From Streptomyces lydicus (GTDB lineage: Bacteria > Actinomycetota > Actinomycetes > Streptomycetales > Streptomycetaceae), in NCBI RefSeq assembly GCF_000717345.1, contig NZ_JNZA01000015.1:166776-230775 (forward strand): 64,000 nt of DNA, read 5' to 3'. Below are positions 27,961 through 30,005 of the stretch, piece after piece. A program made the position numbers and the translations under genes. Below the pieces are notes generated by a model, which saw nothing but the letters and a program-made list of their open reading frames with translations, searched no databases and was not told the origin of the DNA. Position 1 is the first letter of the stretch. Every line of letters starts with the position of its first letter.

Positions 27961-28048
27961 GTCCGGGTGGCGGAATGGCAGACGCGCTAGCTTGAGGTGC
28001 TAGTGCCCTTTATCGGGCGTGGGGGTTCAAGTCCCCCCTCGGACACCA
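27961..28048 (+). tRNA. tRNA-Leu (anticodon GAG)
   Basis: An 88-nt type II tRNA. The acceptor stem GTCCGGG pairs with CTCGGAC (one G-T), followed by discriminator A and an encoded CCA at 28046-28048. The anticodon arm CTAGC-TTGAGGT-GCTAG places GAG at 34-36. A variable arm (TGCCCTTTATCGGGCG) and the T arm GGGGG-TTCAAGT-CCCCC follow. It reads CUC/CUU codons. Confidence 0.97.
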
Positions 28049-28060
28049 CGTACCAACGAG

Positions 28061-28093
28061 TGCGGATCGGGAAGCTTCCCGGTCCGCATTTTT
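28061..28093 (+). terminator. Intrinsic terminator of the tRNA-Leu gene
   Basis: A hairpin TGCGGATCGGGAAG / CTTCCCGGTCCGCA (nearly all paired) followed by TTTTT, starting 12 nt after the tRNA CCA end. One of the few T-tailed terminators here. Confidence 0.9.
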
Positions 28094-28202
28094 CGTGTGC
28101 GGGCCGCGGTCGCTCAGCTGGGTGCCGGCCGCGCGTGGAGCCGTTCGAAATCTGCCCGATTTGGGGGTTCCATTCCGGTATGTGCGGAGTATTCTGTACT
28201 TA

Positions 28203-28380
28203 GACCTACGGGGCGAGCGAGGGAGTTCGTGCCGAAGTGGCCTCAGGTTTAGAGAGCCCTGGCTTTCGCTGAGGACGTGAACGACGGTCGGGCTGAGAGG
28301 CCGAATGGTCGCAAGACCGGACGGCGACCCCAAGCACCTGATCCGGACAATGCCGGCGAAGGGAGCCCACCTCGTAGGTC
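28203..28380 (+). promoter_or_regulatory. TPP (thi-box) riboswitch aptamer with extended P3 arm, orphan
   Basis: The 3' half carries the TPP-aptamer core: CTGAGA at 28293-28298, then GACCCC, ACCTGATCCGG (28336 on), ACAATGCCGGCG and AAGGGA, close to the consensus. The 5' end GACCTACG (28203-28210) pairs perfectly with CGTAGGTC (28373-28380) as P1, directly followed by GGGG, which can form P2 with GACCCC. The roughly 78 nt between P2 and CTGAGA would form an unusually long P3 arm, including CCTCAG/CTGAGG; a GGTC-GCAA-GACC hairpin lies between CTGAGA and P2'. A terminator follows after 9 nt and there is no thiamine gene: the next gene is on the other strand. Confidence 0.85.
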
Positions 28381-28389
28381 GTGAATGTG

Positions 28390-28422
28390 GGAGTGGCCCC
28401 GCCCAAGGGTGGGGCCACTCTC
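28390..28422. terminator. Strong hairpin terminator behind the TPP aptamer
   Basis: Arms GAGTGGCCCC (28391-28400) and GGGGCCACTC (28411-28420) pair perfectly, with an inner CCC-AA-GGG extension. It ends the riboswitch transcript and lies 18 bp beyond the stop of the convergent GMC oxidoreductase gene, so it probably serves both strands. Confidence 0.88.
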
Positions 28423-28439
28423 CTGTCGAGCGGGCGCCC

Positions 28440-30005
28440 TCAGGAGGCGCCCTTGATCATGTCTGCGCACTTCTCCCCGATCATCATCGTGGTGATGCAG
28501 GGGTTCACGGTCGTCAGCAGCGGCATCGCCGAGCCGTCGGCCACCCGCAGACCGGTGACGCCCTTGACGCGCAGCTGCGGGTCGAGGGGGGCCGCCGGGT
28601 CGTCGGGTGCGCCCATCCGGACGGTGCAGGCCGGGTGGTAGACGGTGTTGTGGGTGTCGCGGAGGTAGGCGAACAGCTCGGCGTCGGTGTGTGCGGAGGG
28701 TCCGGGAGCGAGTTCGGCGCCGGCCCAGCCGGCCATCGGGTCCTGGGAGACGATCTTCCGGGCGAGGCGCAGACCGTGGATCATGACGCGTACGTCGTGT
28801 TCCTCGGTGAAGTAGCGCGGGTCGACCTTGGGCTTGTCGCGGAAGTCGCGGGTGCGCAGCCGGACCGTGCCGCGGGAGCGGGCGCGGGTGACGTTCGGCG
28901 TGAGGCAGAAAGCGTTCTCCGAGGTGGGGTAGCCGCGCCGGTAGGTGTTCATGTCGAAGGGCATCGAGCCGTAGTGGAACATCAGATCCGGCCGGTCGAG
29001 GCCCGGCTCGGTGTCGGCGAAGATCCCGATCTCCCACCACTGGGTCGACGAGGTCACCATCGGCTGCTTCGCCTCCCACATGATCACGCCCTCCGGGTGG
29101 TCCTGGAGGTTGGATCCGACGCCGGGGGCGGCGACGAGCGGCTCGATGCCGAGGGCGCTGAGGTGAGCCGCCGGTCCGATGCCGGAGAGCATCAGCAGCT
29201 TGGGTGAGTCGATGGCGCCGCAGGAGACGACCACCTCGCGGCGGGCGTTGACGGTACGGGTGTGGATCAGGTCGGGGGCGAGGTAGTCCACGCCCGTGCA
29301 GCGCCGCGCGGAGTCGAAGTTCAGGCGCTTGGCCTGGAGTCCGGTCCGTACGTCGAGGTTGCGGCGGTCGCCCATGACGGGGTGCAGATAGGACACCGAC
29401 GCCGAGGAACGCGTCCCGTCGGGGCGGCAGTTGATCTGGAACCAGTGGGCGCCGCGGACGACGGTTTCGCCGGTGTTGAACGGGGTGGTGGGGATGCCGG
29501 CCGCCGCGCAGGCTTCGAGCAGGGCGGCGCCGCACGGGTCGCGGGGCGGGACCGTGCGCAGGGTGACCGGGCCGCTGCGGCCGTGGTGGTCGCCGGGCGC
29601 GTCATTGCTCTCCAGCCGCTGGTAGAGCGGGAAGCAGTCGGCCGCGCTCCAGCCCGTGCAGCCCAGCGCCGCCCACTCGTCGAGGTCCTCGGCCGGTGCC
29701 CAGAAGGCGATGCAGGAGTTGTGCGAGGAGCAGCCGCCGAGCACCTTGGCGCGGGCGTGCCGCATGAAGCTGTTGCCCTCCACCTGCGGTTCGACCGGAT
29801 AGTCCCAGTCGTAGCCGGACTCCAGCAGCCCCATCCAGCGGTCCAGGCGCAGCACGTTGTCGTCACCGACGTCGGACGGGCCGGCCTCCAGGAGGCAGAC
29901 GGTGACGTCGGGGTCCTCGCTGAGCCGGGCGGCCACGACGGAACCGGCCGTGCCGCCGCCGACCACGACGTAGTCGAACTCGTCCACGGGCGTCTCTTGG
30001 GACAT
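28440..30005 (-). CDS. GMC oxidoreductase, choline dehydrogenase-like
   Basis: A 521-residue FAD enzyme of the glucose-methanol-choline family. The N-terminal FAD motif is YVVVGGGTAGSVVAARLSE. GMC signatures follow: KVLGGCSSHN, and later GAIDSPKLLMLSGIGPA. The catalytic histidine sits in TVYHPACTVRMG, with the closing block TTVNPCITTMMIGEKCAD. It is the third gene of an operon with a betaine aldehyde dehydrogenase and a permease, so oxidation of choline to betaine aldehyde is the likely role. The ATG at 30005 has GGAG upstream and lies 14 bp after the permease stop. Confidence 0.9.
   Translation of the reverse strand: MSQETPVDEFDYVVVGGGTAGSVVAARLSEDPDVTVCLLEAGPSDVGDDNVLRLDRWMGLLESGYDWDYPVEPQVEGNSFMRHARAKVLGGCSSHNSCIAFWAPAEDLDEWAALGCTGWSAADCFPLYQRLESNDAPGDHHGRSGPVTLRTVPPRDPCGAALLEACAAAGIPTTPFNTGETVVRGAHWFQINCRPDGTRSSASVSYLHPVMGDRRNLDVRTGLQAKRLNFDSARRCTGVDYLAPDLIHTRTVNARREVVVSCGAIDSPKLLMLSGIGPAAHLSALGIEPLVAAPGVGSNLQDHPEGVIMWEAKQPMVTSSTQWWEIGIFADTEPGLDRPDLMFHYGSMPFDMNTYRRGYPTSENAFCLTPNVTRARSRGTVRLRTRDFRDKPKVDPRYFTEEHDVRVMIHGLRLARKIVSQDPMAGWAGAELAPGPSAHTDAELFAYLRDTHNTVYHPACTVRMGAPDDPAAPLDPQLRVKGVTGLRVADGSAMPLLTTVNPCITTMMIGEKCADMIKGAS

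Follow-up and report, generated by a model that had tools for sequence, protein, structure and literature searches.

The locus described here raises the question of what a TPP aptamer does when it has no thiamine gene behind it. Riboswitches are usually defined as cis elements, and the TPP (vitamin B1) sensor is normally attached to thiamine genes. In the 64,000-nucleotide stretch of Streptomyces lydicus DNA that we analyzed (hereafter the window), however, the gene following the aptamer lies on the opposite strand with its 3′ end facing in. An earlier note made from the letters of this DNA had drawn attention to both features, and both were borne out: a GMC oxidoreductase gene follows in convergent orientation, and the arrangement expected of RF00059, an aptamer in cis before a thi gene, was not found. 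From comparison of this locus with its relatives, we think that the RNA probably does a job of its own. The reading that we favor, at a little better than even chances, is that of a small RNA gene with its own promoter, i.e., a free-standing TPP aptamer that is most likely trans-acting and is not a leader.

The aptamer part of the RNA (Table 1) can be read as a TPP aptamer whose P3 is long. The core motifs that had been pointed out are present, with CTGAGA at 28293–28298, ACCTGATCCGG from 28336, ATGCCGGCG at 28350–28358 and AAGGGA running to 28364. All of the letters that we take to be those touching TPP (CTGAGA, CCTGA, AT.CC..CGAAGG) are in place, as is the P1/P2/P3/P4/P5 layout of RF00059, and the fold of 28203–28425 is 4.3 sd above dinucleotide shuffles in stability. 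The RF00059 model matched 28260–28381 with 35.9 bits (E = 1.9e-5, 501 bp searched), and in a search of the whole genome the RNA scored 37.7 bits (E = 2.6e-5). These matches beat chance but fall below the gathering score of 54.3 bits, and a default Rfam scan of the window gave a tRNA as its sole report. Three further RF00059 matches were found in the same genome, at 60.9, 43.9 and 42.9 bits, adjoining genes for ThiO, ThiC and a thiamine-transporter binding protein, respectively, all three of which score above an NCBIfam cut-off. Since two of these three thi-gene switches, those of thiC and the thiamine transporter, are likewise below 54.3 bits, a low RF00059 score is no mark of decay here.

Table 1. 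Features of the RNA locus and its neighbors, in positions of the window.
Feature	Position	Strand	Basis or remark
tRNA-Leu(GAG)	27961..28048	+	Confirmed; neighbor, outside the RNA
Promoter-like stretch: GGGGGTTCCAT block 28163–28173, TATTCT-G 28190–28196	28163..28196	+	Conserved TANNNT and GGGGTTC block
RNA, aptamer part	28202..28380	+	Model R1, 160 bits, E = 1.0e-42; the window is one of the 14 source sequences of R1
P1, 5′ strand	28203..28218	+	Pairs with 28365–28380; 16 positions, covariation over 119 TPP-type members
P2, 5′ strand GGG	28221..28223	+	Pairs within 28328–28331; consensus structure
Long P3 arm	28224..28292	+	Closed arm in folds of the window and nine related loci
CTGAGA, J3/2 TPP-contact segment	28293..28298	+	Motif position, RF00059 match; 118 of 129 loci
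P3a hairpin arm	28300..28325	+	Covarying pairs in consensus structure
P4/P5 half with pyrophosphate-contact letters	28336..28364	+	Motif positions, RF00059 match, core-letter pattern
P1, 3′ strand	28365..28380	+	P1 covariation
15-bp hairpin	28389..28422	+	Likely transcript end, in common with the convergent gene; without U tract
Convergent GMC oxidoreductase gene, choline-dehydrogenase-like	28440..30005	-	Neighbor, outside the RNA; stop at 28440

A DNA search of 41 genomes returned long matches to the RNA, which came from some members of the genus and from f3, a second family of the order. A covariance model, R1, was built from 14 of these matches, the window included, and all 14 are among the sequences counted here; its structure is poor in the middle of P3. 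When run against 295 genomes of the same genus, R1 found the RNA in 98 at ≥65 bits (88 of them at ≥102 bits), with the next match at 48.7 bits. A second model, R2, made from a TPP-less form of the RNA, added two more genus genomes (G164 and G122), for 100 of the 295. R1 matches of 48.7 bits or less were taken by their score to be ordinary TPP switches; as G164, at 46.8 bits, proved to be a minimal member of the family, the count of 98 is a lower bound and others may hide at or below 48.7 bits. Among 119 genomes of the order, 38 had the RNA at E ≤ 1e-11 (32 from the genus and six from f3), and among 296 genomes of the class there was one clear member outside the order, in another family (G603, 112 bits). 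Thirteen other matches outside the order (51–59 bits) look, by score, like ordinary TPP switches. At these thresholds there is one copy per carrier, with the exception of G034, which has two. Carriage by phages or plasmids was considered and rejected: there was no phage match, and the single match in the plasmid collection was to a 5.7-Mb Embleya replicon (74% identity over 63% of the query, at the DNA level), at a place with no annotated features.

The comparisons below were made on 129 loci, comprising 97 of the 98 genus genomes of the R1 search, 22 further genus genomes, eight loci from other families and two named records. The 98th genus genome (G013) stands outside these 129 and was added later (as L283), and two loci were dropped, one with an identical row (L216, identical to L109) and one from the same place as another (L266, at the place of L037). 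The perfect 8-bp P1 described in the earlier note (28203–28210 with 28373–28380) is real, although by comparison P1 is longer, with 16 positions, two of which are mismatched in the window (C × A and A × C). In the 119 TPP-type members, 11 positions of P1 pair in 119/119, one in 99% and three in 77–89%, and compensatory changes on both sides were seen in 18, 5, 39 and 11 sequences at four positions. The A × C mismatch in the middle of P1 (28216 with 28366 in the window) is kept in 118 of the 119, as if it were functional. The P3 arm, as had been remarked, is unusually long at about 70 nt. The TPP-core letter pattern fits 113 of the 119, and CTGAGA was found in 118 of the 129 loci. When five other TPP-type members were compared with RF00059, four scored 32–43 bits and the fifth (L040) had no match. 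Four of the six exceptions to the core pattern come from f3 (L251, L260, L261 and L262) and have core letters changed or deleted, which may mean that the sensor is being lost by yet another route, or that the ligand is a different one.

Upstream of P1, a TANNNT hexamer resembling a −10 element is located 13–16 nt 5′ of the CCT of P1 in 127 of the 129 loci, compared with 15% in shuffled upstream sequence. A G is present four bases before the hexamer in 96% of aligned rows, and a conserved GGGGTTC block lies further upstream. Because the spacing of the −10-like element is fixed, the RNA would be expected to begin with, or close to, the first base of P1. No sigma-70 promoter turned up in a consensus scan of 28040–28460, and no U-tract terminator either. 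The promoter-like stretch as a whole (the G and the GGGGTTC block, at 28163–28196 in the window and at the 128 other loci) does not fit the sigma-70 consensus. At the other end of the RNA, a strong hairpin had been reported about 9 nt past P1; the hairpin is there, 8 nt past P1, with a 15-bp stem (−35.7 kcal/mol, z −6.9), but the U tract of a terminator is absent. A run of at least four T after P1 was observed in only 19 of the 129 loci. As U tracts after P1 are weak, the 3′ end can be placed only tentatively outside the window's type. We count the missing sigma-70 consensus, the missing U-tract terminator in the window and the T run in just these few loci against the RNA-gene reading.

The genes flanking the 129 loci were called with a simple codon-usage caller, not taken from annotation, and neighbors were named from one representative each, all below NCBIfam curated cut-offs, or by eye. 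By these calls, the next downstream gene is convergent in 109 loci, with its stop codon often within tens of bases, and on the same strand in 20. This gene has three main identities, unrelated to one another: a KstR-like TetR regulator (67 loci), a NifS-like cysteine desulfurase (17 loci) and a BetA-like gene (nine loci), with others in the remainder; the close homologue of the window's GMC oxidoreductase at L220 is choline-dehydrogenase-like, below the NCBIfam cut-off. The commonest upstream neighbor is a ferredoxin-like gene (44 of 129).

The prevalence of convergent genes brings in the main rival to our reading, a riboswitch-controlled antisense RNA resembling AspocR, in which TPP would stop transcription after P1 and, without TPP, read-through would lower expression of the convergent gene. 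The nearness of the convergent stop codons is in keeping with such a mechanism, and the B12 riboswitch of AspocR in Listeria offers a precedent (PMC8079631). However, the convergent gene is not the same one throughout but differs between clades, and 20 of the 129 loci have none. In addition, no switchable U-tract terminator was seen in the window, and members of the family that have lost the sensor remain beside the same TetR gene. We therefore regard antisense control of the convergent gene as unlikely.

The 20 loci with a same-strand gene bear on a different possibility, that the RNA is the cis leader of an overlooked small or distant gene downstream. Six of these loci, which are related, share one epimerase-like gene at a distance of 58–596 nt, and we count both the 20 and this group of six against the reading of the RNA as a gene; in the window, moreover, open frames spanning the hairpin can be drawn. 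The other same-strand genes form a varied set that includes, by eye, HAD, IclR, P-type ATPase and aldehyde dehydrogenase types, and no thiamine gene was recognized by eye among the 20. Furthermore, the 46 bases from +15 past P1 are only 24–33% identical in the two TPP-less groups with more than two loci, so that a conserved small frame would hardly fit there. A cis leader of this kind seems improbable to us.

The earlier note had also suggested that the element might be a stranded leader, its own gene having been replaced, for example by the betaine operon; we took this together with the idea of a decaying leader that had lost its thiamine gene. Descent from a TPP riboswitch is indeed clear, but the RNA has been kept across families, with a covarying P1 and a conserved promoter-like element, and the promoter–aptamer unit occurs in several unrelated gene neighborhoods. 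Ten related loci of the window's type, of which nine adjoin the BetA-like gene, have 99% identity in P4/P5 and the 3′ strand of P1 (P1′) against 31–39% in the flanks; between these extremes are P1 and P2 (95%), J3/2 and P3a (90%), P3 (73%) and the promoter stretch (59%). We rejected the stranded leader on the grounds of this conservation across unrelated gene neighborhoods, and give it hardly any credence. As the ligand half is the most conserved part of the RNA in the window's clade, the window RNA very probably still senses TPP.

The setting of the window RNA, between tRNA-Leu and the betaine locus, is not a general one. Only three of 80 betA-like loci carry the RNA, and a scan for tRNAs in 34 of the 80 found one in a single locus, which is among those three; ties of the RNA to the betaine locus or to the tRNA were thus both discarded. 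We also considered that the RNA might replace the thiC switch, as RF00059 counts looked lower in carriers (26 versus 26 genomes). However, the cis switch of thiC was present in 22 of the 22 genomes checked, both RNA-bearing and RNA-free, and the RNA is therefore an addition and not a substitute.

Comparison of the family members revealed that the TPP sensor itself is not always kept. The P4/P5 half and an intact CTGAGA are absent from 10 of the 129 loci and from three loci added later, and 12 of the 100 RNA-bearing genus genomes are without the TPP core, though P1, P3 and the promoter persist. The TetR gene found next to most TPP-type loci also adjoins all 13 TPP-less ones. When the sensor label is placed on a tree built from the DNA of this gene (74 rows), four changes are needed, at least two of which are forced by strongly supported branches; the tree is of a single neighboring gene with many weak inner branches, and the fourth change is possibly a misplaced long branch (L207). 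The three TPP-less groups also differ in which parts were lost, and overall the comparison points to at least two, probably three, independent losses of the sensor. In the group of six loci, mean pairwise identity is 0.88 in P3 and 0.97 in P1′, with 0.56 in the stretch between them and 0.45 and 0.24 in the upstream and downstream sequence, respectively; the TetR gene of this group has an identity of 0.77 at its fourfold sites (7 pairs). As identity in P1 and P3 far exceeds that of the flanks, selection on both seems to have continued past the loss of the sensor in this group. The contrast is weaker in the group of five (P3 0.84, middle 0.81, upstream 0.82, downstream 0.33), where the upstream stretch reaches into the ferredoxin gene, and the third group consists of two loci. 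The smallest version, of 113 nt, was found in G164 (C1:29385-29497, L281) and G122 (C1:256711-256823, L282) and consists of the promoter and approximately P1 and P3 only; in its predicted fold, unlike in the longer forms, P3 is not kept as one arm. That the TPP-less forms belong to a known RNA family was rejected, as none of the five members tested had an Rfam match at E ≤ 0.05.

These losses bear on the possibility that the RNA is a TPP-buffering or passive aptamer RNA with TPP binding as its sole role. The 99% identity of the ligand half in the window's clade would suit such a role. In 12 of the 100 genus carriers, however, the RNA has been retained after loss of the TPP core, which makes pure TPP buffering less likely for the family, and in the best-sampled group conservation continues after that loss. 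The comparison shows the TPP half to be dispensable in some main-clade lineages, and we assign buffering a small chance, about that of the cis leader. Of the suggestion in the earlier note that this is a free-standing ligand-binding RNA acting in trans or by buffering TPP, the anatomical part has stood (the −10-like element in 127 of 129 loci and no same-strand gene next in 109), whereas action in trans or buffering is an inference.

Overall, the comparison reveals a conserved unit with fixed promoter spacing, a covarying P1 and TPP-core letters, and without a consistent downstream gene. For the free-standing RNA that we favor, we infer transcription, TPP binding, a partner and a direction of effect, in a scheme that would run as follows. 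Transcription would begin from the RNA's own promoter at about the first base of P1, and the folded RNA would be a TPP aptamer in which P1 is very long and the P3 arm long, with its end at P1 or shortly past it; in the window, the hairpin at 28389–28422 is the most likely site of that end. Binding of TPP would close the P2/P4/P5 half, so that the P3 and P3a arms would be offered differently to a protein or RNA partner. The action of the RNA on that partner would be in trans, and in the main clade P3 is the arm likely to make the contact. We further hypothesize, tentatively and with somewhat less than even confidence, that in Streptomyces and its relatives a TPP aptamer lacking an mRNA evolved into a free-standing regulator, with P3 as the working arm in the main clade, and that the sensor was later deleted in at least two, probably three, lineages to leave a sensor-less RNA of as little as 113 nt.

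The part given to P3 in this scheme differs in strength between clades. The window's clade and the main clade do not have the P3 sequence in common; in the former, P3 is also the least conserved arm, and the step that makes P3 the effector is therefore weak for the window. The sensor-less relatives belong to the main clade, and what they teach reaches the window by homology only. A base-pairing partner was sought for a 13-mer of P3: its complement had no recurring second site in 15 genomes, and the two lone extra sites found there were within the level of the reversed control, so this candidate was rejected.

The RNA has features in common with, and differences from, several known systems. With the RF00059 riboswitch it shares the core letters and the P1-P2-P3-P3a-P4-P5 layout. 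It differs in having no thiamine gene in cis, a promoter-like element at the start of P1, a P1 of 16 positions with the conserved A × C, a long P3 and a score below the cut-off, and the ligand half is missing from some of its relatives. Trans-acting riboswitch RNAs, and others that control non-coding RNAs, are already known (PMC8079631), with SreA as an example of the first kind and Rli55 and AspocR of the second. SreA and SreB, which are SAM riboswitch RNAs in Listeria, have an additional role in trans (PMC8079631); like the window RNA, they are aptamer RNAs (~200 nt) proposed to be trans-acting. SreA is a terminated operon leader that retains its cis role, whereas no cis gene was found for the window RNA. 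Rli55 and AspocR are B12 riboswitches of Listeria that control non-coding RNAs (PMC8079631). In these, as here, an aptamer is tied to a non-coding RNA and not to an mRNA, and AspocR likewise has a convergent neighbor; there, however, the aptamer precedes a longer effector RNA, whereas here the candidate effector arm, P3, is within the aptamer fold. Among the matches listed in a literature search, which covered few subscription papers, none described a free-standing or orphan TPP RNA in Streptomyces, or sensor-less sisters of one. If our reading is true, the family would represent a rare visible step in which a non-coding RNA gene arises from a riboswitch, and it would offer a possible route from the level of a coenzyme to targets outside thiamine metabolism. 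Nature already provides RNAs that have or lack the sensor and genomes that have or lack the RNA, which makes the reading testable in laboratory Streptomyces strains.

A perfect GTTTCACGTGAAAC, which we take to be the ParB-binding parS consensus, lies inside the thiC TPP riboswitch of this genome, outside the window (G000:C9:108563-108576, i.e., L032:1563-1576). The genome has 42 exact GTTTCACGTGAAAC sites, all on contigs C9 and C14. In the thiC loci of relatives, exact copies were found in 4 of 22, and one-letter variants in five more.
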